The translations under genes were made by a program, and so were the position numbers. The notes under the pieces are model-generated. The model searched no databases and had not been told where the DNA came from. It was given only the letters and a program-made list of their open reading frames with translations. This document shows, one piece after another, positions 4,851 through 25,355 of a stretch of DNA of 34,227 nt. Position 1 is the stretch's first letter, and every line of letters starts with the position of its first letter. The stretch comes from Pseudomonadota bacterium (GTDB taxonomy: Bacteria; Pseudomonadota; Gammaproteobacteria; Xanthomonadales; Xanthomonadaceae), in NCBI GenBank assembly GCA_018242465.1, contig JAFEBY010000025.1:1-34227 (forward strand), read 5' to 3'.

Positions 4851-4954
4851 CCGGCTGTGCGCCTATTGCGGTTGTCTGCAGCCGCCGACACGCCGTGAAT
4901 ACATCCATGCTGCGTACGGTCGGCTCTGCAGACGAACCGCATAGGCGCCGCCGG
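4851..4954. repeat. Long palindromic repeat, copy 1 (core shortened)
   Basis: Imperfect inverted repeat of 104 bases. Outer arms 4851-4881 and 4926-4954 pair with few mismatches (GCCTAT, GCGGTT and CTGCAG blocks), and pairing continues as GCCGAC (4884-4889) with GTCGGC (4919-4924). The inner core shares ACGCCGTGAATAC, TCCATGCTGCG and ACGGTCG with copies at 5046-5150 and 25233-25355. It lacks the GTAG-containing half of the core, as if two TCCATG direct repeats had recombined. It lies 38 bases after the metallophosphoesterase stop and may act as its terminator, though no T run follows. Confidence 0.75.
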
Positions 4955-4980
4955 TGGAGGCTTTCAAGCCTTTGAAAAGC

Positions 4981-5009
4981 GAAAAGCAACAGCGTGCGAG
5001 CTGTTGCTC
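4981..5009 (-). terminator. Probable fadE terminator
   Basis: Arms AGCAACAG (4985-4992) and CTGTTGCT (5001-5008) form a stem extended by a C-G pair, with a 6-base loop. On the minus strand it is followed by TTTTCGCTTTTC. It lies about 155 bases after the fadE stop, beyond repeat copy 2. Confidence 0.6.
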
Positions 5010-5045
5010 TCATGCTCCCAAGAAAGCCACAACACGCGCGCGGAA

Positions 5046-5150
5046 GTGGGTGCGCCAGTCCGGTGCGCGGGCGTGACGCGCCATGGATGGCGCGTCCGAG
5101 CCTACATGGACGTATTCACGGCGTCCCGCGCAACGGAGCTGGTCACCCAC
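5046..5150. repeat. Long palindromic repeat, copy 2
   Basis: Imperfect inverted repeat of 105 bases starting 14 bases beyond the fadE stop codon. Outer arms are 5046-5071 and 5125-5150, roughly 26 bases each, with the innermost GCGCGGG/CCCGCGC pairing perfectly. On the minus strand the core reads ACGCCGTGAATAC, GTCCATGTAGGCTCGG, then a tight inner hairpin (5075-5084 with 5087-5096, ten base pairs around GG). The GTAG tetramer (minus strand of 5102-5105) just before the hairpin resembles GTAG-type REP elements of Xanthomonadales. A smaller stem, GCTGGT (5138-5143) with ACCAGC (5153-5158), overlaps its fadE-side end. Confidence 0.8.
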
Positions 5151-5163
5151 GCACCAGCGCGAG

Positions 5164-7644
5164 CTAGGCAACCGCCCGCGCCAACTGCTGCTCGCGCGCA
5201 ACCAGATCGCGGTAACCGGCGGAACGCAGTTCTTCCGGATCGAAGTCGTCGACCATGATGGTGTCGAGCGTCATTGTCCGCAGCTCGCGCAACTGGTCGG
5301 CTTCCTCGGACGTGATCCAGCCTTCGCGCACGCCTTCGACCAGTTGATCCTCGAACTCCAGCGCCTCGATGTCGCTGTTCTTCAGCGCCTTCATGAACTT
5401 GCGCTCGACCGGTTCTGCCATCACGAACTTCGGCAGGTAGCTGATGATGCGGCCGGCCGGATTGTTTTCGCCGGGTGTGGTGAACACGCCTTCGGCCAGG
5501 CGATCGCGTGCATCCGACGGCGTCATCAGCAGGCTCGCCACCTTGTGGCCGAGGCGATCGCTCGGCGCCTGTGCGCGGCGTCCCCACGGGAAGATGATCG
5601 GCCACAGCAGCCACGCCACCGGGCGCACCGGGAAATTGCGCAGTGCGCCGGACAGCGCGGTTTCGATCTTGTTGACCGCGTCGTGGATGGCCCAGGCCAG
5701 CAGCGGCTGGTCGCTGGCGGGACGGCCTTCGTCCTCGTAGCGCTTGAGCATGCTGCTGGCGATGTAGAGCTCGCTCAGCACGTCACCGAGGCGACCCGAC
5801 AGCGATTCCTTGAACTTCAGCTTGCCGCCCAGCATCAGCATCGAGACGTCGGCCATCACCGCGAGATTGGCGGAGTAGCGATTCATCTTGCGGTAGTAGC
5901 GGCGGGTGTAATCGTCGCCCGGCGCCTTGCCGAACTGCGACCACGTCAGGCCGAACCACAGGCTGCGCACGGCGTTGGAGATCGCTGCGCCGATGTGTCC
6001 GAACAGCGCACCGTCGAAAGCGCTGATGCGCGCGTTGGCATCGGCGATCTGGGTCGCCTTCATTTCCTTCATCACCCACGGATGGCAGAGGATCGCGCCT
6101 TGCCCGAAGATCATCAGCGAGCGCGTCATGATGTTGGCGCCTTCCACGGTGATCGCCACCGGCGATGCCTGCCAGGCGCGGCCAGCGAAATTGCGCGGGC
6201 CAAGGATGATGCCCTTGCCGCCGATGACGTCCATCACGTCCTTGGCGACTTCGCGGCCCATCGTGGTGCAGTGGTACTTGGAGATCGTCGAAGGCACCGC
6301 CGGGTTCTCGCCGCGCGCGACGGCTGCAGCGGTGGCCTGCGACAGCGCGCTGATCGCGTAGGCGTGGCCGCCCATGCGCGCGAGTGCTTCCTCGACGCCT
6401 TCGAAGCGGCCGATCGACAGGCCGAACTGCTTGCGGATGCGCGCATAGCTGCCGGTGACGACCGCGCCCATCTTGGCGCCACCGCTGGCGGTGGAGGGCA
6501 GGGTGATGGAGCGGCCGATCGACAGGCATTCCATCAACATGCGCCAGCCCTGGCCGGCGTAGTCTTCACCGCCGATCAACTGCGACAGCGGCACGACCAC
6601 GTCCTTGCCGCGGATCGGGCCGTTCTGGAACGGCGAGTTGAGCGGGAAGTGGCGACGGCCGATGTCCAAGCCTTCCGAATCACGCGGCACCAGCGCCAGC
6701 GAGATGCCGATGTCCTTCTTGTCGCCAAGCAAACCATCGGGGTCGTACATGCGGAAGGCCACGCCGATCAGGGTCGCCACCGGCGCCAGCGTGATGTAGC
6801 GCTTATTGAGCGTCAGGCGCACGCCCAGCACCTTGGCGCCGTTCCATTCGCCGCTGCAGACGATGCCGTAGTCGGGAATCGATGTGGCATCGGAGCCGGC
6901 GAACGGGCCGGTCAGCGCGAAGCACGGCACTTCGCGGCCGTCGGCCAGGCGCGGCAAGTAGTGCGCCTTCTGCTCGTCGGTGCCGTAGTGCATCAGCAAT
7001 TCCGCCGGGCCCAGCGAATTCGGCACGCCCACCGTCGAACTCACCACCGACGAGATCGATGCCAGCTTCTGGATCACCTTGTGGTTCATCAGCGCCGAGA
7101 ACCCGAGGCCGCCGTATTCCTTCGGGATGTTGAGGCCGAAGAACTTGTTGCGCTTGACGTACTCCCACATCTGCGGCGGCAGGTCGGCGCGGACATGGTC
7201 GATTTCCCAGTTGTCGGTCATGCGGCACAGCTCTTCGCACGGACCATCCAGGAAGGCTTGTTCTTCGGCCGTCAGTTCCGGCTTCGGCAACTTCAGCAAC
7301 TGCGACCAGTCGGGCATGCCGGAGAACAGCTGGCCTTCGAAGCCGACCGTGCCCGCTTCCAGTGCGGTGCGTTCGGTGTCGGACAACGGTGGCAGGATGC
7401 GCGTGTAGAACTTGAGCAGTGGCGCTGTCACCAGCGACTTGCGGATGCCCGGCACCAGCAACGGGATCGCCGCGATTACGGCCAGCCCCATCAGCGCGAT
7501 GGTGAGCGTCGTATTACCGCTGAGGAACCAGGCAACCAGCAGGAATGCCGCCGTCAATGCCAACCACAGCGCAAGGCTCCAGCGGTGATAGGCCACGATG
7601 CCGGTTGCGATCACGATAGCGAGGATGGGGAGAACGATGCTCAT
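5164..7644 (-). CDS. fadE: Acyl-CoA dehydrogenase FadE
   Basis: First enzyme of fatty acid beta-oxidation, oxidising acyl-CoA to trans-2-enoyl-CoA with FAD. From the ATG at 7644 it is 826 residues, close to the about 814 of E. coli FadE and much longer than ordinary 380-residue acyl-CoA dehydrogenases. Two or three hydrophobic segments (about 4-18, 22-40, 46-64) precede the dehydrogenase domain, as in FadE. ALTGPFAGSDATS (243-255) is the flavin/substrate-binding signature, and the long C-terminal region matches the DUF1974-type extension of the family. A GGAG Shine-Dalgarno lies about 7 bases before 7644; an upstream ATG at 7716 would add an unlikely leader. Divergent from the TetR gene, whose product is the obvious candidate regulator. 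Confidence 0.93.
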   Translation of the reverse strand: MSIVLPILAIVIATGIVAYHRWSLALWLALTAAFLLVAWFLSGNTTLTIALMGLAVIAAIPLLVPGIRKSLVTAPLLKFYTRILPPLSDTERTALEAGTVGFEGQLFSGMPDWSQLLKLPKPELTAEEQAFLDGPCEELCRMTDNWEIDHVRADLPPQMWEYVKRNKFFGLNIPKEYGGLGFSALMNHKVIQKLASISSVVSSTVGVPNSLGPAELLMHYGTDEQKAHYLPRLADGREVPCFALTGPFAGSDATSIPDYGIVCSGEWNGAKVLGVRLTLNKRYITLAPVATLIGVAFRMYDPDGLLGDKKDIGISLALVPRDSEGLDIGRRHFPLNSPFQNGPIRGKDVVVPLSQLIGGEDYAGQGWRMLMECLSIGRSITLPSTASGGAKMGAVVTGSYARIRKQFGLSIGRFEGVEEALARMGGHAYAISALSQATAAAVARGENPAVPSTISKYHCTTMGREVAKDVMDVIGGKGIILGPRNFAGRAWQASPVAITVEGANIMTRSLMIFGQGAILCHPWVMKEMKATQIADANARISAFDGALFGHIGAAISNAVRSLWFGLTWSQFGKAPGDDYTRRYYRKMNRYSANLAVMADVSMLMLGGKLKFKESLSGRLGDVLSELYIASSMLKRYEDEGRPASDQPLLAWAIHDAVNKIETALSGALRNFPVRPVAWLLWPIIFPWGRRAQAPSDRLGHKVASLLMTPSDARDRLAEGVFTTPGENNPAGRIISYLPKFVMAEPVERKFMKALKNSDIEALEFEDQLVEGVREGWITSEEADQLRELRTMTLDTIMVDDFDPEELRSAGYRDLVAREQQLARAVA

Positions 7645-7776
7645 TGCAGCTCCGCTGGAATTCAAACAATTGAATGAATGAACATGAGCGTATACCAAGC
7701 CCACACTCTTTTCCATACTTAGACGTATTGAGTAAATTTCGCATTCGTCAAGTTGCAGTGCAGCACCATACGCACT

Positions 7777-7806
7777 TTGACTGAACCGTACGGTAGTGCT
7801 TACACT
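7777..7806 (+). promoter_or_regulatory. tetR promoter with palindromic operator in the spacer
   Basis: TTGACT (7777-7782) and TACACT (7801-7806) are spaced by 18 bases and resemble a sigma-70 promoter. The perfect palindrome ACCGTACGGT (7785-7794) fills the spacer. Only GGGTC separates the -10 hexamer from the tetR ATG at 7812, so transcription would begin at or beside the start codon. A TetR dimer on the palindrome would block polymerase, implying autoregulation. Confidence 0.6.
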
Positions 7807-7811
7807 GGGTC

Positions 7812-8414
7812 ATGACAAACCAGATCGCATCGATTTCCGGCAAGGCGGATCGCGCCGGCCGGCTCAGCGCCGACGATTGGTCGGCCGCGGCCCTCCAGCA
7901 GATCGGAGAACAAGGGGTCCCGGCGTTGGCGGTCGAGCCGCTGGCCCGCCGGCTTGGCGTGACCAAGGGCAGCTTCTACTGGCACTTCCCGACCCGCGAC
8001 GCCCTGTTGCAAGCCGCGCTCGATCGCTGGGAACAGTACGAACAGGCGCATGTGTTCGATCGCCTCGAATCGATCGGCGATCCGCGCGCGCGCCTCGAAC
8101 AGCTGTTCCAGCTGGTTGCACACGATGACGTCTCGCATGTCATCTATGGCCAGCTGTTGCGGGCGATGGACAACCCCATCGTGCTGCCGGCCGTCACGCG
8201 CATTTCGCGTCGCCGCCTGGAATGGGTCACCGATTCGTTCCGCCGCGCCGGCTTCGATACCGATGCCGCGCGCTATCGCGCCCGGCTGGTGTATTCGGCC
8301 TATATCGGGTTCCTGCAACTCAACCTGCAGTTGCCGCAGGATCGGCCACCGAAAGAAGAATATGAAGCGTATGTCGCCCACATGATGGCGACGCTGATTC
8401 CAAAACAGGGTTGA
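7812..8414 (+). CDS. TetR/AcrR-family transcriptional regulator
   Basis: A 200-residue repressor-type regulator. The N-terminal helix-turn-helix spans about residues 33-71, with LARRLGVTKGSFYWHFPTRD as the recognisable TetR turn and recognition helix. The remaining helices form the ligand/dimer domain, which shows no diagnostic motif. It diverges from fadE and is followed after 7 bases by pckG. An acyl-CoA or fatty-acid ligand is therefore plausible, with fadE, pckG and itself as targets; this is inferred from position only. The ATG at 7812 has no Shine-Dalgarno and lies 5 bases behind a -10-like hexamer, suggesting a leaderless mRNA. Confidence 0.9.
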   Translation: MTNQIASISGKADRAGRLSADDWSAAALQQIGEQGVPALAVEPLARRLGVTKGSFYWHFPTRDALLQAALDRWEQYEQAHVFDRLESIGDPRARLEQLFQLVAHDDVSHVIYGQLLRAMDNPIVLPAVTRISRRRLEWVTDSFRRAGFDTDAARYRARLVYSAYIGFLQLNLQLPQDRPPKEEYEAYVAHMMATLIPKQG

Positions 8415-8421
8415 GGCAATC

Positions 8422-10191: not shown

Positions 10192-10232
10192 AGCGGCCAC
10201 CGGCAGGCTGACACATCCGGTTGATGCAATGG

Positions 10233-10266
10233 AAAGACCCGGCGGAAGTGGCCGGGTCTTTTTTAT
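10233..10266 (+). terminator. pckG terminator
   Basis: Eleven-base-pair stem, AAAGACCCGGC (10233-10243) with GCCGGGTCTTT (10251-10261), followed by further T and ATTT. A strong intrinsic terminator about 42 bases after the pckG stop. Confidence 0.9.
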
Positions 10267-10528
10267 TTGGCCTTCCTTGACACTCCTGTCTCGCGATACT
10301 GCGGGCATTTGCACACACCTGTTCCATCGGTTGACAAGTCTGGCGATTTCCGGAGTTCGGTTTATCACTGGGAAATGTAGGTGCACGGGTGCTGAACAAA
10401 ATTGCTCAATCCAAAGATGAATGGCCACCAAGGATTTTGTTAAGTAATCGTTTATGGAAGATGACCCGGTCGGGTTGCCCTGATGGATGGGGTGCCTGTG
10501 TCTTCACTCACTCCACGGGACTTCTTCA
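10267..10528 (+). promoter_or_regulatory. Upstream region of the first TonB-dependent receptor
   Basis: No convincing gene is seen here. TTGTTAAG at 10437-10444 is shared with the upstream regions of the second receptor and of the exported protein ending at 18676, and an AAGGATTTTGTT stretch (10429-10441) resembles AAGGATTTGTT at 13866-13876. No good -10 lies 16-18 bases behind TTGTTA here. TTGACA-like hexamers at 10277 and 10331 also lack a partner. Confidence 0.4.
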
Positions 10529-13500
10529 ATGGCATCCAATTCAATCCGGTTCGGATTCAAGCGCAGTGTGTTGACCGTCGCGCTCGGTCTCTGCTTTGCA
10601 GGCGGGGCCCATGCCCAAGCCACCAGCGGTTCCATCTACGGGACGGTACCTGCCGGCGCGACCGTCACGATCAAGAACGATGCGGGGTTCACCCGCACCA
10701 TGACCGCCGATTCGCAAGGCCGATACACGGCAAGTTCATTGCCGGTTGGCTCGTATACCGTCACCTCGGGCAACAGCACGCGAGAAGTCGTCGTGACACC
10801 TGGCGCCGGTGCCAATGTGTCGTTTGTTGCTGCCAAAGCCAGTGAGGCCAATACCCTCGGCACCATCACAGTCACTGCCCGTGGCGCGCCTGCCATTGAT
10901 GTGACCCAGACCGATACCCGCACTGTCGTGACGGCTGCACAGTTGAAGCGCCTGCCGATCGCCCGTTCGGCGGAAGCCATCGCCCTGCTGTCGCCAGGCG
11001 CAGTTGGCGGGAATGGCACCTTCTTTGGTGGTGAAGTGTCGTTTGGCGGTTCCAGCGTTGCCGAGAATGCGTATTACCTCAATGGGTATTTCAGCGGCAA
11101 TCCGATTACCAACGTGGGCGGCTTTCAGTTGCCCTATGGTTCGATCGAACAGCAGGAAACCTATACCGGCGGGTACGGCGCCAAGTACGGCCGTTCTGAC
11201 GGCGGCGTGATCAGCCAGGTGGGCAAGAGCGGCTCGAACACATTCCATTTCGGCGGGCAGTTCGTCTATGGACCGAAGTCGCTGCTGGAAACGGACCCCG
11301 ATACCTACTACAACCCGCCTGCGTTGCCCGCGGACACTCCATACGGCTCATGGTCATACCTGCATCCCGCGCGCGTGGGTCAGATGTACAGTTCTGGCAA
11401 GAACAACCTGTCGTGGGGCAATACTTACTCAGGTTATGTCAGTGGCCCGCTGGTCAAGGACAAGCTCTTTGCTTTCCTGTCCTACGAGACCACGCTTTCT
11501 CACGCCACTACCGCTCCCGTCACGCCCTTGGCTGCCCCCAGCCAATTGGGGACGAAGTCGTCCTCACGCGACCCGAAGATGTACCTCAAGATCAACTGGA
11601 ACATCAACGACAAGAACCTGCTCGAATACACCTTTGTCGGCGAGAAGTATCGCCAAAGTGGTGATACCTACAACTACGACTGGAACAGCAAGAGTTTCCT
11701 GGGCAAGAGCATTCCCGACACCAGCGTGCAGGAAGACAATCGCTTCCATATCGTCAAGTACACCGGTTACCTGTCTGACAACCTGACGTTGACCGCGCTC
11801 TATGGCAGGTCGACCAAGACCTACAACACCGATCCGTACCTGACCGGTCTGCCGCTCATCAATGCCGGCGATGGCGACCAGGATCCCGCCATCACCGGCG
11901 GTGCAACCCTGACCAACCTTCAGCAAACCCAGAATGCGGTCAAGAACACCAAGGACGCCACCGATGGCTATCGCATCGAGCTGGAATACGTACTGGGTCG
12001 CCACACCCTGAGCGCGGGCATCGACAACACCAACCTGAAGGGCGAGAACGAAGGCCAAAGCCAGGTTGCGGATGTCTGGACCTACAGCTATACCGGCGAC
12101 AACGTGACGCCTGTCAACGCTGGCCTGGGTGTCGGGCCCTCGACCAATCCCGGTGGTTACTACGTCAGTCGCGACCAGTATTTCGACACCACCACCATGA
12201 AGCTGAAGCAACAGGCGTGGTATCTGGAAGATCGCTGGCAGGTGACCGACAGGTTGCTGCTGTCGATCGGGATCCGCAATGACAAGTTCCAGAACTTCAG
12301 CGATGCTGGCGTGCGCTTCGTCGACAGCAAGGCCCAGTGGGAACCGCGTTTGGGCTTCAGCTGGGATACGTTCGGCGATTCCACGTTCAAGGTGTTCGGC
12401 AATGCAGGGCGCTATTTCCTCGCCATGCCGAATGCCGTGGCAATCCGTGGCGTGGGCAGGTCGACCTACACCAACGAATACTTTACTTACACCGGCATCG
12501 ACGCCAATGGTGTTCCTACGGGCTTGACCCCGATCCAGAACCTGGCGGGTACCGGCCCCGCGGGTCCGGTGTCGTCCGATGGCGAAACCGGCGCGCCAAA
12601 GGATCCGCTGGCCTATGTGCCCAAGGACATCAAATCCGAATATCAGGATGAGTTCGTGCTCGGTTTCCAGGCAAATCTGACCAAGGCTTGGACCATTGGC
12701 GCCAAGCTGACCCACCGTGATCTGAAGTCGGCGATTGACGACATGTGTGATCACGGCTCGGTGATGGCAGCGGCCGGCATGACAGACCAAAGCGGTGGCG
12801 GCACCAATAATCTTGGCAATTACACTGCGCAGGGCGCTGATGGCAATTACTACGGCGTGTCAGGTTGCTACATCTTCAATCCGGGCGGCAGCAATACCTA
12901 CAGCTTCGCGCAGATCAACCAGGACGTGAACGGCCAGTGGCAAATGACCGGGAACCGCAAGAACGTGAAAATCGCCTCGGGTGCCCTGGGGCCCGGCATG
13001 GATGTGTTGAAGCGCAAGTACAACGCATTGGATCTGTTCCTCGAGCATCCGTTCGACGGCAAGTGGGAGGCCCGCATCGACTACACCTTCAGTCATTCGA
13101 CCGGCAACTCGGAAGGCCCGGCCAACTCGGATACCGGGCAGGGTTCCGATTCGCATGACAACGGCGTAGGCACGAGCCAGAACTACGATGCCTGGCAAAT
13201 CATGGCATTCGCCGACGGCTATCTCCCGAACGATCGCACCCACGTGCTGAAGGCGCATGGCAGCTACGCGATCACGCCCGAATGGATGGTGGGGGGCAGC
13301 GCGACCATCGCCTCCGGTGCGCCGATCAGTTGCTTCGGACTCTATGATCCGGACGGCAGCATCGACCACAACTCGCCCGATGCAGATCCGATCGGCTATG
13401 GCGATTCCTACCATACCTGCCTCGGCCAGAGTTGGACGCCGGGCAAGACGCGGACTCCGTGGACGCATACCTACGATCTGAATGTGACCTGGAAGCCGGC

Positions 13501-13681
13501 ATTCCTCCAGCACAAGATGGCGGTGTCGTTGAACGTGTTCAACGTCGGCAACAAGCGCACGCCGACGTCGGTGTATGCGTATAGCGAGAGTTCCCCGTAC
13601 CAGATGCGTGAAAGGTTGTTCCAGCCGCGTTCATACACGACACCGCGCTATGTCAACCTGAGCGTGAGCTACGATTACTGA
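10529..13681 (+). CDS. TonB-dependent outer-membrane receptor with N-terminal carboxypeptidase-regulatory-like domain (paralog 1)
   Basis: A 1050-residue outer-membrane receptor of the Oar-like type. From the ATG at 10529 it has a 29-30 residue signal peptide ending GGAHAQ, a small beta-sandwich domain (about 31-105, with the GRYTASSLPVGSYTVT signature), a TonB-box-like LGTITVTA (110-117), a plug domain (NAYYLNGY, YGAKYGRSDGGVI) and a long beta-barrel ending LSVSYDY. Cysteines occur in two pairs: one around DDMCDHG...GCYIFNPG, the other around ISCFGLYDPDGS...YHTCLGQ. All four recur in paralog 2 and are probably disulfides in surface loops. The substrate is unknown; this class imports or binds large or complex ligands. 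An upstream in-frame ATG (10487) is rejected because it precedes the signal peptide. It is followed by its own terminator. Confidence 0.92.
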   Translation: MASNSIRFGFKRSVLTVALGLCFAGGAHAQATSGSIYGTVPAGATVTIKNDAGFTRTMTADSQGRYTASSLPVGSYTVTSGNSTREVVVTPGAGANVSFVAAKASEANTLGTITVTARGAPAIDVTQTDTRTVVTAAQLKRLPIARSAEAIALLSPGAVGGNGTFFGGEVSFGGSSVAENAYYLNGYFSGNPITNVGGFQLPYGSIEQQETYTGGYGAKYGRSDGGVISQVGKSGSNTFHFGGQFVYGPKSLLETDPDTYYNPPALPADTPYGSWSYLHPARVGQMYSSGKNNLSWGNTYSGYVSGPLVKDKLFAFLSYETTLSHATTAPVTPLAAPSQLGTKSSSRDPKMYLKINWNINDKNLLEYTFVGEKYRQSGDTYNYDWNSKSFLGKSIPDTSVQEDNRFHIVKYTGYLSDNLTLTALYGRSTKTYNTDPYLTGLPLINAGDGDQDPAITGGATLTNLQQTQNAVKNTKDATDGYRIELEYVLGRHTLSAGIDNTNLKGENEGQSQVADVWTYSYTGDNVTPVNAGLGVGPSTNPGGYYVSRDQYFDTTTMKLKQQAWYLEDRWQVTDRLLLSIGIRNDKFQNFSDAGVRFVDSKAQWEPRLGFSWDTFGDSTFKVFGNAGRYFLAMPNAVAIRGVGRSTYTNEYFTYTGIDANGVPTGLTPIQNLAGTGPAGPVSSDGETGAPKDPLAYVPKDIKSEYQDEFVLGFQANLTKAWTIGAKLTHRDLKSAIDDMCDHGSVMAAAGMTDQSGGGTNNLGNYTAQGADGNYYGVSGCYIFNPGGSNTYSFAQINQDVNGQWQMTGNRKNVKIASGALGPGMDVLKRKYNALDLFLEHPFDGKWEARIDYTFSHSTGNSEGPANSDTGQGSDSHDNGVGTSQNYDAWQIMAFADGYLPNDRTHVLKAHGSYAITPEWMVGGSATIASGAPISCFGLYDPDGSIDHNSPDADPIGYGDSYHTCLGQSWTPGKTRTPWTHTYDLNVTWKPAFLQHKMAVSLNVFNVGNKRTPTSVYAYSESSPYQMRERLFQPRSYTTPRYVNLSVSYDY

Positions 13682-13799: not shown

Positions 13800-13860
13800 C
13801 TTGGTGTACGAGGAATAAATCCATTACCTAGATTTCATTTATGAATGCGTGGTGAGGGAC

Positions 13861-13889
13861 TTGTTAAGGATTTGTTTCTGTCGCATAGT
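13861..13889 (+). promoter_or_regulatory. Predicted promoter of receptor 2
   Basis: TTGTTA (13861-13866), 17-base spacer, CATAGT (13884-13889). Transcription would start near 13896, leaving a leader of about 72 bases. The -35 lies in the TTGTTAAG motif shared with two other genes of this locus. Confidence 0.55.
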
Positions 13890-13967
13890 CCCGAAGTCAG
13901 GCTGACAGGGTGCGCCCAAAGGCCGACGTGTATTCAATGTGTTTCCACACCCATGGGGTTCAAATCA

Positions 13968-16900
13968 ATGGCATCCAATTCAATCAGGTCCGGCCTCAAG
14001 CGCAGTGCCCTGACTGTGGCACTGGGTTTCTGCTTCGCAGGGACCGTTCATGCGCAATCCACCACCGGCACCGTGTATGGCACGGCGGCACCGGGCGAGA
14101 CCATCACCGTCGTTAGCGAAACCGGTTTTGCACGTACGGTTGGCGTCGACAATTCCGGTCGTTACTCACTGGGCAACCTGCCGGTTGGCAACTACACCGT
14201 CACCGCAAAGAAGGGTGAGCAGGTCATTGGCACCAAGCAGGTGCTGGTGAAGGTGAGCTCCGGGTCGGAAGCATCGTTTGCAAGCGGTGGCACCGCAGGC
14301 GGAAGCAACGAGCTTGGCACGATCACCGTGACCTCGAGCGGCGCCGGCATTGATGTGACCCAGGTGGACTCGCGCACCGTCATTACGTCGAAGGACTTGG
14401 CCGTGCTGCCAGTCGCGCACAGCGCCGAAGCCATCGCGCTGTTGGCCCCGGGCACCGTCAAGGGCAGCGGCTATTTCGGCAGTGCCGTTTCGTTCGGCGG
14501 CGCTGGCGTGACCGAAAATGCCTATTACATCAACGGCTTCAACGTGTCTGATCCGCTGGCCAATATCGGCGGTCTCGGCCTTCCGTATGGTTCGATCGCC
14601 CAGCAGGAAACGATCAACGGCGGCTGGAGCGCCATGTATGGTCGTTCCGATGGTGGCGTGATCAGCCAGATCGGTAAGCGCGGCAGCAATGACTGGCACT
14701 TTGGTGGCCAGGTGAGCTGGCGCCCGAAGGCGCTTGCGTCGACGCCGAAGAACATCTTCTACCCGACGACCCCTCTGCCGGGCGGTACCAATACCGGTGA
14801 TCCGACCAGCATGATTGGTGCGCCCAATGCTGCCGGTACGCCTGTTGCCGCGTGGCACTATGACAATGCCTCGTTGCCGGGCAGCCTGTATCGTGATCGC
14901 AGCAAGGACAAGCTGTGGAACACCACGTACGACGCCTATATCGGCGGCCCGCTGGTTCCCGACAAGTTGTTCTTCTTCCTGTCGGCTGAAAAGTCGAAGG
15001 ATTCCTACGTCAGCACCGGCACCAACACGCTGGGATCCGCGCGTTCGTATATCGATGCCCCGACGACCAGGATTTACGGCAAGATCGACTGGAACATCAA
15101 TGATTCCAATATCTTCGAACTGACCGGCATCAAGGAAAACGACCACTCGTCAGGTAGCCGTTACGCGGCGGGTGGCGGTACGTCCACCTATGGTACGGAT
15201 GGCAATTACCTGGGCAATGCAACGCCGACCAAGGAAGACACCTTCGTCTACATCGCCAAATACACCAACTACCTCACCGACAACTTGAACTTCTCGGTGA
15301 CCTACGGCAAGGACGTGGTGCACAATCCGACGATGCTGGCGGCGATTTCGCCACTGCCGTTCATCGCCAACACGCAATACATTCCGGCCGCTTACATCCC
15401 GGCAGGCGGTCTTAGCTTGCCGCAGGTTTCGAATGCAGGCGGTACTCCGGATGCGAGGCTGCAGGCAACCGGCGTGCGCTTCGACGTTGAATACAAGCTC
15501 GGCTCCCACCAGTTCCATGGTGGTATCGACAACATGACCTACACGGCCTTCGGTCAGGGTGCCGCGACCTCGGGTCCTGGGTATTACTGGAACTACCGTT
15601 CGAACAAAGTCAATGTTCGCCAGTACTTCTTCAACACCCAGGCTTCGATGTCGGTGGTGCAGAAGGCCGTGTACGTGGAAGACGTGTGGCAGGTGTCTGA
15701 CCGCATGCTGTTGAAGCTCGGTATCCGCAGCGATGACTTCAACAACAAGAACAGTGCCGGCCAGAGCTACGTGCATGAAAAGCACCAGATCTCGCCGCGC
15801 CTGGGCGCCAGCTGGGACCTGAAGGGCGACTCGACGATGAAGCTGTACGCCAACGTCGGCCGCTACTACTTGGCCTTGCCGAACGAAGTCGCGATCCGTG
15901 GCGCTTCGCCGTCGACCTATTACTACCAGAACTACACCTATACGGGTGTCGACGCCAATGGCCAGCCGACCGGTCTGACCTACAAGCCGAACCCGGCGAC
16001 CGCCAATGGTGGCTATTCGGGTAACAACGAATTCGGCCAGGTCCCGGATCCGAACGGCATCGCCGCAAAGAGCCTGAAGCCGCAGTATCAGGATGAAGGC
16101 ATCCTCGGCTTCGACTGGCAGTTCAGCAAGAAGTGGATTGCCGGCGCCAAGGCCACCTATCGCAAGCTGGGGACGGTGATCGATGACTGGTGCGATACCG
16201 GTCGCGTTGCCGCAGCATTGCCTGGTGGCGGTGCGGACTACACCGTTCCGGGCTGCTACATCATCAACCCGGGTCGCGACAACACCTTCCACGTCAAGAA
16301 CAATGTCACCGGCCAGTACTCCGACGTCGTCCTGAGCAACTCGCAACTCGGTTTTGACTTCAAGCCGGTTCGCAAGTACGAAGCGCTGGACCTGTACCTG
16401 GAGCATCCGTTTGACGGCAAGTGGCAGGCGCGCGTCGATTACACCTGGAGCCGCAACCCCGGTAACACCGAGGGCCAGGTCAAGTCGGATATCGGCCAGA
16501 CCGACGTCTCCAAGACGCAGGACTGGGATTACGCCGGCCTGATGGTGAATTCGTATGGCTACATGGCCAACGATCGCCGTCACTCCCTGCGTGTCCGCGG
16601 CATGTACCAGTTCGCGCCGGAATGGCTGTTGACTGGCAAGTTGCTGGTGCAATCGGGTACGCCGAAGAGCTGCCTCGGTTACTTCTATGGCGATACCGAT
16701 CCGATTGGTTATGGCTCGTCCTACCACACCTGCTTCAATCAGGCTTTCGCACCGGGCTCCGCCCGTGGTCCGTGGACCAAGCAGCTTGATCTGGGCATCG
16801 TCTATCGTCCGAAGTTCTTCAACAAGAAGCTGACGGCCGCATTGGACGTGTTCAACATCACCAACGACCGCAAGGGCATCCAGTTCGATCCGACCCTGGA

Positions 16901-17012
16901 AACCAGCGGCGTGACCGGTTCGGGTGACGGCACCATTCGTTCCGCTTACGGGATGCCGCTTTACTTCCAGTCCCCGCGTTACGTGCAGTTGAGCGTGAGC
17001 TACGACTACTGA
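13968..17012 (+). CDS. TonB-dependent outer-membrane receptor with N-terminal carboxypeptidase-regulatory-like domain (paralog 2)
   Basis: A 1014-residue paralog of the preceding receptor with the same architecture: signal peptide ending TVHAQ (1-30), small beta domain (31-105, GRYSLGNLPVGNYTVT), TonB-box-like LGTITVTS (116-123), plug (NAYYINGF, YGRSDGGVI) and barrel ending LSVSYDY. The bases around the start codon, TCAATGGCATCCAATTCAAT, are identical to paralog 1, as are many later blocks. The four paired cysteines (DDWCD...PGCYIINPG; KSCLGYFYGD...YHTCFNQ) are kept. The barrels differ most in the middle, where surface loops would set ligand choice. The genes probably arose by tandem duplication and diverged. 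The start at 13968 is chosen for the signal peptide; an in-frame ATG at 13845 precedes it without one. Confidence 0.92.
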   Translation: MASNSIRSGLKRSALTVALGFCFAGTVHAQSTTGTVYGTAAPGETITVVSETGFARTVGVDNSGRYSLGNLPVGNYTVTAKKGEQVIGTKQVLVKVSSGSEASFASGGTAGGSNELGTITVTSSGAGIDVTQVDSRTVITSKDLAVLPVAHSAEAIALLAPGTVKGSGYFGSAVSFGGAGVTENAYYINGFNVSDPLANIGGLGLPYGSIAQQETINGGWSAMYGRSDGGVISQIGKRGSNDWHFGGQVSWRPKALASTPKNIFYPTTPLPGGTNTGDPTSMIGAPNAAGTPVAAWHYDNASLPGSLYRDRSKDKLWNTTYDAYIGGPLVPDKLFFFLSAEKSKDSYVSTGTNTLGSARSYIDAPTTRIYGKIDWNINDSNIFELTGIKENDHSSGSRYAAGGGTSTYGTDGNYLGNATPTKEDTFVYIAKYTNYLTDNLNFSVTYGKDVVHNPTMLAAISPLPFIANTQYIPAAYIPAGGLSLPQVSNAGGTPDARLQATGVRFDVEYKLGSHQFHGGIDNMTYTAFGQGAATSGPGYYWNYRSNKVNVRQYFFNTQASMSVVQKAVYVEDVWQVSDRMLLKLGIRSDDFNNKNSAGQSYVHEKHQISPRLGASWDLKGDSTMKLYANVGRYYLALPNEVAIRGASPSTYYYQNYTYTGVDANGQPTGLTYKPNPATANGGYSGNNEFGQVPDPNGIAAKSLKPQYQDEGILGFDWQFSKKWIAGAKATYRKLGTVIDDWCDTGRVAAALPGGGADYTVPGCYIINPGRDNTFHVKNNVTGQYSDVVLSNSQLGFDFKPVRKYEALDLYLEHPFDGKWQARVDYTWSRNPGNTEGQVKSDIGQTDVSKTQDWDYAGLMVNSYGYMANDRRHSLRVRGMYQFAPEWLLTGKLLVQSGTPKSCLGYFYGDTDPIGYGSSYHTCFNQAFAPGSARGPWTKQLDLGIVYRPKFFNKKLTAALDVFNITNDRKGIQFDPTLETSGVTGSGDGTIRSAYGMPLYFQSPRYVQLSVSYDY

Positions 17013-19518: not shown

Positions 19519-19544
19519 AAGTTCCCCTCTATATGAACGAGTCG

Positions 19545-19573: not shown

Positions 19574-19605
19574 CTTCCAAGCCGACCCGAACCGAAATCA
19601 TTCAG

Positions 19606-20502: not shown

Positions 20503-20518
20503 TGCGGGGATCGGCAAG

Positions 20519-20524
20519 GATAAT
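20519..20524 (+). promoter_or_regulatory. -10-like hexamer of mtgA
   Basis: GATAAT lies six bases before the mtgA ATG at 20531, so transcription from it would begin at the start codon. No consensus -35 is seen. The overlapping minus-strand CATTAT could serve hslO. Confidence 0.4.
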
Positions 20525-20530
20525 GTCCGG

Positions 20531-21349
20531 ATGGGTCGGACTTCTGGCAATCGAGATGGGGGCGCACCAGCCGGTGCGCAAGGGACGCGGCGCCGGCTTC
20601 GCCGGCTGCGCAAATGGCTGCTGTGGCTGCCAGCCATCGCGATCGCCTTCAGCATCGTGCAGGTCGCGAGCCTGCGCTTCATCAACCCGCCCATTTCCAG
20701 TTTCATGATGATCCGCACTTTGGGTGCGTGGCTGTCCGGCGATACCGGATTTCGCATTGCTTACGAGTGGCGGCCGCTGGCGAAAATTTCACCATCGCTG
20801 CCAGTGGCGGTGATGGCCTCGGAAGACCAGAAATTCGCCGAACATGATGGGTTCGATTTCGACGCGATCCAGGCCGCCGAGCGCTACAACGCGCGGATGA
20901 AGGCGCGCGCGGAAGCCCGCGGCCGGCCGGTGACGAAGGTGCGCGGTGCCAGCACCATCAGCCAGCAGACCGCGAAGAACCTGTTCCTGTGGCAGGGCGA
21001 CAACATGGTGTTGCGCTGGGGGCGCAAGGGATTGGAGGTCTGGTACACCTTCCTGATGGAGCACCTGCTGCCGAAGGATCGCATCCTCGAGCTGTACGTC
21101 AACATTGCCGAGTTCGGTGACGGCGTGTACGGCGCGCAGGCGGCGTCGCGTAGTTTCTTCGGTGTCGATGCGTCGCGATTGTCGTCGGCGCAGGCGGCAC
21201 GGCTGGCGGCGGTGTTGCCGAGTCCGCGCCGGTTCAGCGCCGCGCATCCGAGTCCCTATGTCCTGCGTCGTGCCGGCGCCATCCAGCGCCAGATGGGCAA
21301 TCTTGGGGGAACCGGTGCATTGCAGGATGTGGAAGACGCCAGCCGTTGA
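20531..21349 (+). CDS. mtgA: Monofunctional peptidoglycan glycosyltransferase
   Basis: Polymerises lipid II into glycan strands at the inner membrane (GT51 family). The 272-residue protein has an Arg-rich cytoplasmic tail, one membrane segment (about 28-46) and the catalytic motifs in order: EDQKFAEHDGFD with catalytic E98, GASTISQQTAKNLFLW (139-154), the ELYVNIAEFGDGVYG segment and a C-terminal LPSPRRFS. No transpeptidase domain follows, so it is the monofunctional form. The ATG at 20531 gives a short tail before the membrane segment; longer upstream frames overlap hslO. A strong palindrome (GCCGGC-TTC-GCCGGC) lies within the N-terminal coding part. Confidence 0.94.
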   Translation: MGRTSGNRDGGAPAGAQGTRRRLRRLRKWLLWLPAIAIAFSIVQVASLRFINPPISSFMMIRTLGAWLSGDTGFRIAYEWRPLAKISPSLPVAVMASEDQKFAEHDGFDFDAIQAAERYNARMKARAEARGRPVTKVRGASTISQQTAKNLFLWQGDNMVLRWGRKGLEVWYTFLMEHLLPKDRILELYVNIAEFGDGVYGAQAASRSFFGVDASRLSSAQAARLAAVLPSPRRFSAAHPSPYVLRRAGAIQRQMGNLGGTGALQDVEDASR

Positions 21350-21403
21350 GCGGGGTGTGACGGTGGGAGTATCCTGAAGGCCGGCTCGAGGCGAGGAATA
21401 TCC

Positions 21404-21835
21404 ATGGGTCAGGTACAGCATCTGCTTGAGGGAAAGACTGTTTCCGGAGTGGTGTCGATCGCTCCGACGGCGCCTGTTCTCGATGCCCTGCGCTTGATGG
21501 CCGAACGCGGCATCGGCGCGGTGCTGGTGATGGAGGGAACGAAGCTGGTCGGCATCCTCTCCGAACGCGATTACGCGAGAAAGGTCGTGTTGCTGGGGCG
21601 CACCTCGGCGACCACGCCGGTGAGCGAGATCATGAGCCATGAAGTGGTCTGCGCGCGCCCCGGAGACGATATCCACAAGTGCATGCAGGTGATGACCGAC
21701 AAGCGCGTGCGCCATCTGCCGATCCTCGACCACAAGGAAGTCGTCGGCCTGGTATCGATCGGTGATCTGGTGAAGGCGGTGATCGATGACCAGAAGACCG
21801 AACTGCGCCACCTGCAGGACTACATTACTTCTTGA
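21404..21835 (+). CDS. Two-CBS-domain protein
   Basis: A 143-residue cytoplasmic protein made only of a CBS pair. CBS1 is at about 10-70 (VVSIAPTAPVLDALRLMAERGIGAVLV...GILSERDYARKV) and CBS2 at about 78-135 (VVCARPGDDIHKCMQVMTDKRVRHLPIL...GLVSIGDLVKAVI). Such stand-alone modules bind adenosyl nucleotides and regulate partners; the partner is not evident. A GAGGCGAGGA Shine-Dalgarno precedes the ATG. It follows mtgA by 54 bases on the same strand and converges with trhA. Confidence 0.92.
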   Translation: MGQVQHLLEGKTVSGVVSIAPTAPVLDALRLMAERGIGAVLVMEGTKLVGILSERDYARKVVLLGRTSATTPVSEIMSHEVVCARPGDDIHKCMQVMTDKRVRHLPILDHKEVVGLVSIGDLVKAVIDDQKTELRHLQDYITS

Positions 21836-21853
21836 GGTGGCAGTCCTGATTCG

Positions 21854-22501
21854 TCACGGGACGACGAGTTCCCACACTGCAACGAAATGGCAGATGGTTC
21901 CGGCGGCGACGAAGGCATGCCACACCGCATGCGCATACGGCAATTTCTTGCTGAGATAGAACACCGTGCCCAGCGTGTAGCAAACGCCGCCGGCAATGAT
22001 CCAGTTGAAGACCCAGGGGCCGAGTGCGCTGCGCATCGTCCGCCATTCGAAAATGGCGAGCCAGCCCATCGCGATGTAGACCAGGGTCGAAACCAGTTTG
22101 AAGCGTCCGGTGAAGAACAGCTTGAAGGCGATGCCGAAAGCCGCCAGCGACCAGATGACGATGAACAACCGGATGCCGGTCGGCTGGGGCAATGCCAGCA
22201 GCGTGAACGGCGTGTAGGTGCCGGCGATCAGCAGGTAGATGGCGCAGTGGTCCATCACCTTGAGGCGCGCGCGCCGCGCCGGTTCACTGGCGCTGTGGTA
22301 TGCCGTGCTGGCACCGTAGAGCGCAAGCATTGAAGCGGTGAACACGGCTGCCGACAGCAATTGCAGGCCGCTGGCATGTTGCACGACTGCCACAACGAGC
22401 AACACCACGCCGGCGATCAGTGCGGCGATCACGCCGAGTCCGGCAGTCCAGACATTGGCGCGTTCTTCCTGCGGGGTATAGGTGGAGATGCCGTGGCTCA
22501 T
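21854..22501 (-). CDS. trhA: Hemolysin III/TrhA family (PAQR-like) membrane protein
   Basis: A 215-residue protein with seven predicted membrane segments. Signature metal-site residues are present: AYHS with H69, D84-H85 in KVMDHCAIYLLIAGTYTPF, and the C-terminal HAVWHAFVAAGTICH (H191, H195, H205). Family members are PAQR-related membrane proteins linked in some bacteria to membrane lipid homeostasis; true haemolytic activity is generally not expected. The ATG at 22501 directly precedes the TYTPQEERAN segment common to the family. It lies 75 bases after the CPBP gene on the same strand. It has its own -10-like TATGCT six bases before the ATG and a perfect palindrome upstream. Confidence 0.92.
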   Translation of the reverse strand: MSHGISTYTPQEERANVWTAGLGVIAALIAGVVLLVVAVVQHASGLQLLSAAVFTASMLALYGASTAYHSASEPARRARLKVMDHCAIYLLIAGTYTPFTLLALPQPTGIRLFIVIWSLAAFGIAFKLFFTGRFKLVSTLVYIAMGWLAIFEWRTMRSALGPWVFNWIIAGGVCYTLGTVFYLSKKLPYAHAVWHAFVAAGTICHFVAVWELVVP

Positions 22502-22507
22502 GATCGC

Positions 22508-22513
22508 AGCATA
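22508..22513 (-). promoter_or_regulatory. -10-like hexamer of trhA
   Basis: On the minus strand TATGCT is followed by GCGATC and the ATG, so a transcript would start at the codon. The same TATGCTGCG string precedes the glutaredoxin-like gene at 31760. Confidence 0.45.
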
Positions 22514-22520
22514 CGCCAGC

Positions 22521-22541
22521 GAATGATGCGTTGCATCATTC
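22521..22541. promoter_or_regulatory. Perfect palindrome upstream of trhA (candidate operator)
   Basis: Arms GAATGATGC (22521-22529) and GCATCATTC (22533-22541) are perfect inverted repeats around GTT. The site covers the expected -35 region of trhA, between trhA and the end of the CPBP gene. The size fits a dimeric repressor; which one is unknown. Confidence 0.65.
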
Positions 22542-22575
22542 AAGGCGAACGATGTGGCGCCCGGGTTTCGGAAGG

Positions 22576-23487
22576 TCAGCCGATCTTGCGGCGCCAACTC
22601 GGAGCGACAATGGCGTTGCGGCGCATTGCTACGACGAGCAACAAGGCCGACGCAGCCACGCATGTCGCCAATGCGACCACCGATGCTTCTGCCCCGAACG
22701 TGCCGCCGGTCAACCAGTCGGCACCGGTGCGGGTCGATACCAGCCAGCCGTCTGCCTTGGTGCCCGAAACAGGAATGCCGTAGACGGTTCCCTGGAAGAA
22801 GTTCCAGGAGGCGTGCAATCCCATGCAGATCGGAAGTGAGCGCGTCACCATGTAGAGCAGTCCGAACAACAGGCCGGCCTCGACGGCGATGGCCAGCGAG
22901 CTCCATGTGGTTGCACCGGGATTTCCGGCGTGCATGAAGCCGAACGCCAGTGCCGAAACCAGCAAGGCGGCCCAGCTGCCCAGGCCTTCCTCGACGATGC
23001 GGAACAGGATGCCGCGGAACATGATTTCCTCGCCGATGCCGGCGCCGATTCCGACCATCATCAACGACGTGATCCAGTTGGCATGCGGGTTGTAGCCGAC
23101 GACGTGATAGACGCCCAGCAACCACAACAGGCCAACGATGGCGCTGAACAGCGCGGCGCCCGCGATGAAGCCGGCCAGCGCCCGCGACAGCGAGGTGTTG
23201 GACAGCAGTTCGGTCGGAGATCGGCGCTCAATCAGGGACGTCACCACGAGATACGCCACGAGCGCGGGCAGGATGCGGCCGAACATCTGACCGAGCCCGG
23301 CCTGCAATGGCGTTCCCAGGTGCGTCCAGCCCAATGCACGCATGGCGAGTTGCATCACGAGGACGCCGGGCACGAACATCGCGACGAACAGCACGAGTCG
23401 CGCCAATGGCGAAAACAGCGCCCAGCGTTGCCAGGCGGGCTTGCCGGCGGGCGTGGCAAATGCGATCTGCGGACCGGTGACGAACAT
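22576..23487 (-). CDS. CPBP-family intramembrane protease
   Basis: Polytopic 303-residue membrane protein of the CPBP/Abi family (Rce1-like, PF02517). Catalytic motifs: EEIMFR (E153, E154, R158), FGFMH (F182, H186) and HASWN (H225, N229). Hydrophobic segments flank and include these motifs. Family members act as membrane proteases or as immunity/maturation factors; no peptide precursor or bacteriocin gene is seen next to it, so its job is unknown. The ATG at 23487 has a strong AAGGGGGAA Shine-Dalgarno. It follows prfC by 85 bases on the same strand, with a perfect stem-loop in between. Confidence 0.9.
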   Translation of the reverse strand: MFVTGPQIAFATPAGKPAWQRWALFSPLARLVLFVAMFVPGVLVMQLAMRALGWTHLGTPLQAGLGQMFGRILPALVAYLVVTSLIERRSPTELLSNTSLSRALAGFIAGAALFSAIVGLLWLLGVYHVVGYNPHANWITSLMMVGIGAGIGEEIMFRGILFRIVEEGLGSWAALLVSALAFGFMHAGNPGATTWSSLAIAVEAGLLFGLLYMVTRSLPICMGLHASWNFFQGTVYGIPVSGTKADGWLVSTRTGADWLTGGTFGAEASVVALATCVAASALLLVVAMRRNAIVAPSWRRKIG

Positions 23488-23528
23488 CGATTCCCCCTTA
23501 TGACTGGCTCGAGGCAAGTCTGGGGCTG

Positions 23529-23562
23529 GGCGTGACCAGCGCACAGTGGCGATGGTCACGCC
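23529..23562. repeat. Perfect stem-loop between prfC and the CPBP gene
   Basis: GGCGTGACCA (23529-23538) pairs with TGGTCACGCC (23553-23562), ten base pairs with a 14-base loop, starting 10 bases after the prfC stop. No T run follows on the minus strand, so it is more likely an RNA-stabilising or attenuating hairpin, or an operator, than an intrinsic terminator. Confidence 0.55.
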
Positions 23563-23572
23563 ATGGCGAAAG

Positions 23573-25174
23573 TCACGGATCGATGGCGTGCGCGTGCTCG
23601 CGCGTCGCGAGGAAAGACACGCCGGGCGCACGTTCTTCCGCGAGTTGCAGATTGACGCGCGTCGGTGCGAGGTACACCAGCTGGCCGGCGGCATCAATCG
23701 CAAGATTGCCTGCGTGCTTTTCCCGGAATTCTTCCAGCTTCTTCGGATCGTTGCAGCGAATCCAGCGCGCGGTCGCCACCTGCACGTTCTCGAAGGAGGC
23801 ATCGACGCCGTATTCGTCCTTGAGGCGATAGGCGACGACATCGAACTGGAGCATGCCGACCGCGCCGAGGATGAGGTCATTCGACATCAGCGGTCGGAAG
23901 AACTGGGTCGCGCCTTCCTCCGACAACTGCGCCAGGCCCTTCTGCAGCTGCTTGAGCTTGAGCGGATCGCGCAGGCGCGCACGGCGGAACAGTTCCGGCG
24001 CGAAGTTGGGGATGCCGGTGAAGCTGATCGATTCGCCTTCGCTGAAGGTGTCGCCGATCGAGATGGTGCCGTGGTTGTGCAAGCCGATCACGTCGCCCGG
24101 CCACGCGTCCTCGGCGATTTCGCGGTCGCTGGCCATGAAGGTGAGTGCGTTGGCGAGTTTCTGTTCCTTGCCGGTACGGACGTGGAAGGCCTTCATTCCG
24201 GCACTGAATCGGCCGGAGCAGATGCGCATGAAGGCGACGCGGTCGCGGTGTTGCGGATCCATGTTGGCCTGGATCTTGAACACGAAGCCGGTCAGCTTGT
24301 CTTCGTCCGGCTGGATGCCGCGGCCGGTGGTGGCGCGCGGCAGTGGCGAGGGCGCGTGATCGACGAAGAAGTCGAGCAGCGGCTGCACGCCGAAGTTGTT
24401 GACGGCGGAACCGAAGAACACCGGTGCCTGTTCGCCGCGCAGGTAGGCATCGCGATCGAAGGGATGCGACGCGCCTTCGACCAGCTCCAGTTCGTCGCGC
24501 AGTGCGGAGAGCATGTCGGCGCCGATCGCGGCTTCCACGCCGGGATCATCGATCGACGGGAAGATGGTCGAATCCTGGCGGGTGAAATTCTTGCCAGCCT
24601 CGTACAGGTGTACTTCGCCGGTGATCAGATGGACCACGCCCTTGAGACGCTGGCCCATGCCGATCGGCCAGGTCACCGGCGCGCACTGGATCTTCAACAC
24701 GCTTTCGATTTCGTCGAGCAGTTCGATCGGATCCTTGCCCTCGCGGTCGAGCTTGTTGATGAAGGTCATGATCGGCGTGTCGCGCAGGCGGCACACTTCC
24801 ATCAACTTGATCGTGCGTTCTTCGACGCCCTTGGCGACGTCGATCACCATCAATGCGCTATCGACCGCGGTGAGCACGCGATAGGTGTCCTCGCCGAAGT
24901 CGGCGTGGCCGGGGGTATCGAGCAGGTTGACGATGCGGCCCTCGTAGGGGAATTGCATCACCGAGGACGTCACCGAGATGCCGCGTTCCTTTTCCAGCGC
25001 CATCCAGTCGGATGTGGCATGGCGTGCAGCCTTGCGGCCCTTGACTGAACCGGCCATCTGGATCGCGCCCCCGAACAACAGCAGCTTTTCCGTCAGCGTG
25101 GTCTTGCCGGCGTCGGGGTGGGAAATGATGGCGAAGGTGCGCCGGCGGGCGGCTTCCTGGGCAACGGTGGACAT
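23573..25174 (-). CDS. prfC: Peptide chain release factor 3
   Basis: Translational GTPase that removes RF1/RF2 from the ribosome after peptide release. At 533 residues it has the usual length. GTPase motifs: G1 SHPDAGKTT (18-26), G3 DTPGHADF (86-93), G4 NKLD (140-143), and RF3-type [20 protein letters not shown] ahead of the switch. The C-terminal domain holds the expected [19 protein letters not shown] segment. The ATG at 25174 is the only start that gives the standard N-terminus. A TATAAT hexamer on the minus strand (25223-25228) may be its promoter, just inside a long palindromic repeat that separates it from the M23 peptidase gene. Confidence 0.97.
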
Positions 25175-25222
25175 ACGGAAGACGACGCGGGGCGCGCCAA
25201 CTCATTCAAATGGGAACGCGGA

Positions 25223-25228
25223 ATTATA
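25223..25228 (-). promoter_or_regulatory. -10 hexamer of prfC
   Basis: Exact TATAAT on the minus strand, about 49 bases before the prfC start. The -35 position falls in the left arm of the long palindrome (25233-25257) and shows no TTGACA-like sequence. Confidence 0.5.
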
Positions 25229-25232
25229 CCGG

Positions 25233-25355
25233 GCGCGGCAGGGGGCCATGGGTCGGGATTCCGCGACACGCCGCAAGTACGTCCATGTAGGCTCGTGCGC
25301 AGCATCCATGCTGCGCAACGGTCGCTTCACCCGATCCCATGGCCCCCTGCCGCGC
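25233..25355. repeat. Long palindromic repeat, copy 3
   Basis: Arms 25233-25257 and 25330-25355 are complementary over 25 bases with one bulged T; the outer 20 pairs are perfect. The inner part continues with GCGAC/GTCGC pairing, then the conserved core ACGCCG, TACGTCCATGTAGGCTCG and a second hairpin (25296-25305 with 25308-25317, ten base pairs around CC). GTAG is at 25287-25290. The element begins four bases after the M23 peptidase stop codon. Compared with copy 2, the inner hairpin differs in sequence but stays fully paired. Confidence 0.85.

Follow-up and report, generated by a model that had tools for sequence, protein, structure and literature searches.

The palindromes of a Xanthomonadaceae DNA stretch are copies of an interspersed repeat found across many Gammaproteobacteria

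The window analysed here, a stretch of 34,227 nucleotides from a bacterium of the Xanthomonadaceae, carries three long palindromes (e1, e2 and e3) that are copies of an interspersed repeat found across many Gammaproteobacteria. The reading we favour, and regard as probable, is that e1-e3 are non-autonomous mobile palindromic repeats of a gammaproteobacterial family, the stems of which would stay roughly paired and the centre of which would flip as a result of template switches from one arm to the other during replication. The evidence comes from R2, a covariance model of the 59-nt core built from 16 copies, and from comparisons of individual loci (L labels) between the window genome (G000), a draft of 139 contigs that is 87% complete, and other genomes (remaining G labels).

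Table 1. Coordinates of the palindromic elements and their cores in the window
Feature	Positions	Strand	Remarks
e1 palindrome	4851..4954	+	Subfamily A; core lacks 23 nt between two ATCCATG loops
e1 shortened core	4886..4921	+	Deletion product of the full A core
e2 palindrome	5046..5150	-	Subfamily B, with the core on the minus strand; arms common to other B copies
e2 59-nt two-hairpin core	5070..5128	-	R2 84.6 bits, E 3.5e-19
e1-e2 composite, A(+)-spacer-B(-)	4843..5163	.	Left end AGCATCGCCCGG; boundaries approximate
e3 single palindrome	25233..25355	+	Arms absent from the other own-genome copies read
e3 59-nt two-hairpin core	25264..25322	+	R2 85.7 bits, E 1.7e-19

The preliminary description of this DNA had placed three palindromes at the positions listed in Table 1, and the folds confirmed them. 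The z-scores were -6.3 for e1, -4.6 (core strand) and -5.1 (other strand) for e2, and -8.3 for e3, and none of 200 shuffles was equally stable for any of the three. The 20-bp perfect stem reported at 25233/25355 in e3 was also recovered; no other perfect stem in the window exceeded 12 bp (loop of at least 20, span of at most 160), and the longest in 100 dinucleotide shuffles of the window was at most 15 bp. An inner core common to the elements had been claimed as well, and the three cores do align, that of e2 being on the minus strand. A full core of subfamily A, shortened by 23 nt between its ATCCATG loops, gives the e1 core exactly, and e1 is a deletion derivative of that core; R2 matched it at 4886-4946 with 21.3 bits (E 0.03). 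Together, e1 and e2 are the halves of a composite of ~320 bp with arms that recur in the genome, the right end of which is worn and adjoins the stop codon of a minus-strand gene, and a composite unit of about 300 bp recurs within the genus. All three elements lie just after stop codons, as had been noticed: e1 starts 38 nt past the stop of a metallophosphoesterase-like gene (3832-4812, plus strand), e2 ends 13 nt from that of a minus-strand acyl-CoA dehydrogenase gene (5164-7716), and e3 ends 3 nt from that of a minus-strand M23 peptidase gene (25359-26192). At the gathering threshold, Rfam matched nothing in the whole window except one SAM riboswitch.

The own genome held 28 occurrences of the search pattern for the core, against none in the control. 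A covariance-model search, which the preliminary description had proposed, gave 62 own-genome matches at E ≤ 0.001 (70 at E ≤ 1) and matches in 15 of the 41 genomes of the relatives set, own included, with 0 to 77 copies per genome in the genus. More distantly, R2 matched at least 68 of 369 genomes (own included) in at least 61 of 272 genera of a class sample, and at least 27 of 398 genomes of a phylum sample, every one of these 27 in Gammaproteobacteria, the share of the 398 lying outside the class not being given. Scoring in either sample was limited to the best 13-15 candidates of each genome, and the copy counts are lower bounds from which weak copies may be missing. A 25-mer scan of named genomes returned at least 119 stretches, among the titles of which were Rheinheimera, Marinobacter, Stenotrophomonas, Yersinia, Methylotuvimicrobium, Halopseudomonas and Idiomarina. 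With the limited sensitivity of short queries, blastn found no match to the composite or core queries in plasmids, to the core query in phages or to e2 in E. coli genomes; one copy on a viral contig matched Ysr224, a Yersinia RNA family discussed below, at 133.9 bits.

R2 applied to 100 of the at least 119 pattern loci gave 139 matches. In their alignment the core forms two hairpins, both capped by an NTCCNT loop that reads ANGGAN on the opposite strand. None of the 14 core pairs was without a change on both sides, and the cells changed on both sides numbered 363, against 93.9 in shuffles, none of 500 of which reached as high a count. Such changes were mostly found in hairpin 2, and the GCC/GGC pairs varied in few cells. 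The alignment had been fitted to the two-hairpin structure, against which slid controls guard: paired cells made up 93.4% of the alignment and 29-40% of the controls. TCC was present in the first loop of 138 of the 139 matches, a position largely fixed by the search pattern, and in the second loop of 132. Inverted neighbouring cores were convergent without exception, in 26 of 26 pairs of the GTDB loci, which also held six same-strand neighbours, and in 17 of 17 pairs of the own genome, e1-e2 among them. In one of the 26 (L176), a palindrome was hit on each strand, and the own-genome count used 64 of the 70 R2 matches, the weakest six being left out. Several copies have a further repeat nested in the apical loop of hairpin 2; 11 such insertions were flagged by pattern, and three of them (L024-, L053-, L056-) were dropped, their ATCCATG loops being intact.

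The arms around this core are mostly 15-35 bp long and unrelated in sequence between families. The preliminary description had taken them to be unrelated at every locus, which is correct among e1, e2 and e3; not all arms are locus-specific, however, as those of e1 recur as family A and those of e2 as family B, in both of which the arms recur along with the element. Among the 55 own-genome copies read by script, 28 carried B arms, 20 A arms and seven others; three of the last (L056, L092 and L097) look like worn B arms, and e3, L019, L026 and L027 have arms of their own. We compared arm pairing in 120 of the 127 copies read from the named genomes (107 for gene context), omitting copies too near the end of a locus. 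The median pairing score of a copy with its own arm was 19.5, versus 7 for cross-pairs, and in 96 of the 120 copies the own-arm score exceeded the 99th percentile of the cross-pair scores. Arms unlike those of any other sampled copy were carried by 44 copies, 40 of which still paired with themselves. A conserved core on paired, variable arms is thus the general layout. The earlier proposal of a structured apical domain on variable yet paired stems, which had been made dependent on outer-arm pairing beyond chance in other copies, is supported both by these 96 copies and by covariation at all 14 core pairs.

The evolution of the arms was followed in 23 comparisons between G000 and G007 (22 totalled, one having fewer than 12 pairs), taking those pairs that form Watson-Crick matches in G000 and could be aligned to G007. 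Among 667 such pairs, 537 were unchanged, 92 had changed on one side (22 to G-U, 70 broken) and 38 on both (21 to another Watson-Crick pair, three to G-U, 14 unpaired); seven further pairs were gapped. At 12.6% change per site, about 10.6 double changes and about 3.5 Watson-Crick replacements would be expected, against the 38 and 21 seen, and given 38 double changes about 13 would be Watson-Crick by chance. Double changes cluster, an effect that wear or misalignment of the arms could produce as well, and the excess of Watson-Crick double changes supports concerted arm change only moderately. The upkeep of the arms is loose, as the 70 pairs broken on one side show. At single loci, hairpin 2 stems differ wholesale between species, which suggests an exchange of cores between copies.

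Orthologous sites were found filled, empty and inverted, in agreement with the mobile-element behaviour that the preliminary description had considered. G004 and G006 lack the element at the e3 site and have no more than a short dyad there (in G004 one of 6 bp, judged by eye); in G007 and G015 the site holds the element inverted, together with its private arm sequence (CATGGG...CCCATG). The outermost arms of e3 differ between the species, their pairing being full in G000, mostly kept in G007 and partial in G015. At L019, the element of G014 is turned round relative to that of G000; in G004, G007 and G015 the site is empty, with a 13-bp stretch and no trace of arms, and G006 has other sequence without the core. 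At L027, the copies of G006 and G007 are inverted, the G014 site is empty and without arms, and in G004 a terminator-like hairpin is present. Arms of one locus differ between species and yet pair to a large extent, and some of the stem turnover suggested earlier is supported. At e3, L019 and L027, private arm sequence is common to both orientations. We found no explanation other than inversion in place for the single copies that carry private arms.

Composites were also inverted. The e1-e2 composite is inverted in G006 and reduced in three relatives, of which G004 retains A, oriented as in the window, G007 retains B, turned the other way, and G015 has the ends only. At L016, G015 is inverted relative to G000, G004, G006 and G007, whereas G003, G008, G010 and G013 are empty and G014 keeps only A. 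For composites, independent or repeated insertion at one favoured site is possible. Over the 20 loci filled in both G000 and G007, 13 had the same and seven the opposite orientation; the comparison covered 40 stretches of G007 (77 copies), and among its 21 rows L025 and L054 are one locus, counted once. A rough script gave, as same and inverted, 11 and 7 for G000/G007 (plus one other), 4 and 4 for G000/G006, 4 and 3 for G000/G004, 5 and 3 for G006/G007, 3 and 2 for G004/G007, and 2 and 1 for G004/G006; it allowed five mismatches and made some spurious core calls, and we prefer the 20-locus count and the sequences themselves. Single orientation calls in the window genome could be assembly errors, since this genome is a draft. 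Nevertheless, composite inversions also separate G004 from G007, both of which are 99-100% complete in about 20 contigs, and this speaks against a draft artefact. At e3, L019, L027 and L016, the empty sites are too diverged to define any target-site duplication.

If template switching between the arms operates on these elements, it would explain both the paired but unrelated arms and the flipping. A switch of template from one arm to the other during replication would homogenise the arms and invert the spacer. Template switching is described as homogenising inverted-repeat arms and inverting spacers in yeast genes with short spacers in the consulted part of PMC8604942, and as making and mending stems in that of PMC8794818. 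Spread between loci is not explained in this way, so an enzyme is needed, and this putative transposition enzyme would recognise the constant hairpins rather than the stem sequence. In its most specific form, which we offer tentatively, the idea is one of mobile hairpins read only at the tip: the putative machinery would recognise the two NTCCNT loops, leaving the stems free to be rewritten in each lineage by template switching, which would flip the element as well. When transcribed from the upstream gene, an element would form a 3' hairpin irrespective of its orientation, which would probably affect mRNA ends mildly at most.

The long arms could alternatively have been supplied by the target. 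The preliminary description had suggested insertion into hairpin loops, and if the core inserts into the loop of an existing terminator-like hairpin, locus-specific arms would be the two parts of a split target. The short dyads seen by eye at the empty e3 site of G004 and at the empty L016 sites of G003, G010 and G013 fit such an origin, as do the repeats lodged in the apex loop of hairpin 2, and the targets of YPAL, a Yersinia repeat, are reported in the consulted part of PMC2229807 to span or adjoin dyads, with duplications of 3-26 bp. However, arms are absent from the three empty relatives at L019 and from G014 at L027, in the genomes filled at L016 a short dyad resembling the empty-site ones is found intact next to the element, on one side (by eye), and in A and B copies the arms recur together with their element. 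Insertion into a ready-made hairpin is not supported as the source of the long arms, and we consider this explanation improbable.

In another rival explanation, e1-e3 would be REP or TIR elements of the GTAG type, mobilised by a RAYT/TIRYT tyrosine transposase. The habits are the same, as REPs are palindromic, intergenic, arranged in head-to-head pairs and located after genes, and the consulted part of Di Nocera 2013 (PMC3733652) describes REP dimers inside longer palindromes as well as self-complementary TIR families in Stenotrophomonas maltophilia. Nevertheless, the GTA of the core is base-paired and shows compensatory changes, C-G replacing U-A at one pair in 15 of 134 scored cells, and there is thus no fixed unpaired GTAG tag. 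The Y1_Tnp profile, moreover, had no match in G000, G004, G007, G008, G013, G014, G015 or G016, some of these genomes being incomplete, and a partial one in G006; near-complete matches lay in G002 and G011, which lack any core match, and G003, which has one. A Y1_Tnp/RAYT enzyme was therefore rejected as the present mobiliser in this genus, no complete match being found in core-rich genomes, and we give the REP explanation very little credence. Pairs of cores at a spacing of 1-4 kb were inspected for an autonomous element. At L404/L411 a DUF4357 gene separates the two cores, and the L404 protein had no relative in the other loci compared (tblastn, best E 0.58). One lead to the putative machinery is a DUF4357-domain gene, which also matches GIY-YIG weakly, between two convergent cores 1.1 kb apart in G474. 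At L412, L413 and L414, open frames were seen by eye between or beside cores.

The gene context of 107 GTDB copies, judged from crude open-frame gene calls, was convergent in 29, tandem in 40, divergent in 11 and not classified in 27. In their placement the repeats avoid divergent intergenic regions. With the same crude gene calls, tandem contexts held 25 copies in core-strand sense versus 15 in GGA sense and convergent ones 13 versus 16, and no fixed strand relative to transcription was found (38 versus 31 overall). Strand-specific RNA functions are ranked low because of this lack of a clear preference. Hairpin loops with ANGGA are of the type bound by CsrA/RsmA, and a functional RNA with two such hairpins on one strand, the dispersed copies of which would be putative CsrA-binding sites or sponges, is as doubtful as REPs are here: both loops are nearly invariant while the stems covary, and one loop hairpin of e2 weakly matches TwoAYGGAY (RF01731), which shares Rfam clan CL00106 with RsmW, but this match covers one hairpin only (22.2 bits against a threshold of 43), elements occur in both orientations at one site, the Rfam Ysr224 model lies on the UCC strand, and blastn with e2 found nothing in the E. 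coli genomes.

Non-autonomous mobile repeats with flipping centres, as we prefer to read e1-e3, can be compared with three known systems. TwoAYGGAY (Weinberg 2010, PMC2864571, as far as the consulted part goes) resembles them in the AUGGAU/C hairpin loops on one strand, and differs in that a single hairpin of its 168-position model aligns, at 18.5-22.2 bits. REP/BIME and TIR elements, as covered in the text consulted, share the general habits set out above, including, for some, a position inside longer palindromes; the repeats described here differ from them in their two-hairpin core, which is without the fixed unpaired tag, and in the Y1 transposase results for the core-rich genomes of the genus.

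The closest likeness is to a repeat of Yersinia. The preliminary description knew of no named family with this layout, and in this it was mistaken: the Yersinia copies are YPAL/RU-2, Rfam RF02770 (Ysr224), which is the one named family member that could be identified. Copies in Yersinia similis found by the core pattern match Ysr224 at 126.5 and 129.9 bits, and two Yersinia loci (L141 and L179) were found by both the core pattern and R2. RU-2 is equated with the YPAL of De Gregorio 2006 in the consulted part of Delihas 2007 (PMC2759123), and the reverse complement of the 168-nt RU-2 printed there (Table 1b) carries the 59-nt core, by reading. The RF02770 model, with a gathering score of 70, gave 28.2 bits on e2, along which it aligned, 19 bits on e3 and no match on e1; on eight loci from other genera it scored 32-41 bits at three (L123, L137 and L178) and had no match at E ≤ 0.01 at five. 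Six core 15-mers were not found printed in the literature searched, which is a weak test in that the printed RU-2 is also without them. Ysr224 is listed among the 20 most prevalent annotated sRNAs in a table of PMC9029176, and transcripts from several copies, differing in expression, are described for Y. ruckeri (PMC12112432), each source being consulted in part.

YPAL/RU-2 and the window elements share the 59-nt two-hairpin core, the intergenic location and insertion polymorphism just after genes, empty and filled sites having been described for YPAL in the consulted part of PMC2229807. They differ in their arms, those of the window being unrelated to the Yersinia ones, and in their unit, which is about 167-168 bp in YPAL/RU-2 versus palindromes of 104-123 bp in the window, two of them in the ~320-bp pair. 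The hosts named in the same review are Yersinia and Erwinia carotovora only, and the wider host range, the turnover of the arms and the in-place inversion are absent from the YPAL accounts consulted. The comparison joins a repeat named from Yersinia to a family present in at least 61 of the 272 sampled genera of the class, in which unrelated-looking arms are the usual state. Since copies flip and arms differ at orthologous sites, this family could serve as a natural record of bacterial template switching, and it could help to find the enzyme that spreads YPAL-like repeats.

A gene is enclosed between two copies of the core, the 59-nt two-hairpin unit of the repeat, at one locus of genome G474 (L404). 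The two cores are convergent, lie 1.1 kb apart and carry similar arms. The gene between them encodes a product of 294 aa, in which a DUF4357 domain was recognised (E 1.2e-19); the match to GIY-YIG is weak (E 0.19). This core-gene-core unit is possibly an autonomous or cargo-bearing form of the repeat. Cores were also found in tandem arrays at two other loci (see the table).

The apex loop of hairpin 2 holds another repeat in approximately ten copies of the window's own genome, across different stem variants. The nested repeat starts with CCGCT or CCGTT and ends with CTCACC. In three other genomes (L139, L202 and L228), hairpin 2 is interrupted by further hairpin sequences, and TGCAGGAGCAATTT is common to the inserts of L202 and L228.

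At L055 (G000:C129) in the window genome, a GGTC tetranucleotide array, which is missing from the relative G007, directly precedes the composite of two convergent palindromes. At the site in G006 (L275) orthologous to L019, an own-genome copy with arms of its own, ~130 bp of different, palindromic-looking sequence (CCATTTGGGTGC...GCGCCCAAATGG) without a core occupies the place of the element.

Locations of the features described in the text
Feature	Location	Strand	Details
Convergent cores enclosing a gene	L404:411-1559 (G474)		
Tandem core array	L118:3132-3727		period ~180 bp, four copies
Tandem core array	L415 (G583)		period ~228 bp, five copies
Own-genome copies with nested apex repeat	L008, L024, L025, L028, L053, L101, L102, L103, L106		
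SAM riboswitch	window 26333-26456	+	RF00162, 72.2 bits
Open frame 1	window 10487-13681		~1060 codons
Open frame 2	window 13845-17012		~1060 codons

Elsewhere in the window, genes for an alpha/beta-hydrolase-fold protein and a Cys/Met metabolism PLP enzyme lie downstream of a SAM riboswitch. Two adjacent open frames, 71-85% identical in DNA over stretches, perhaps represent a tandem duplication.
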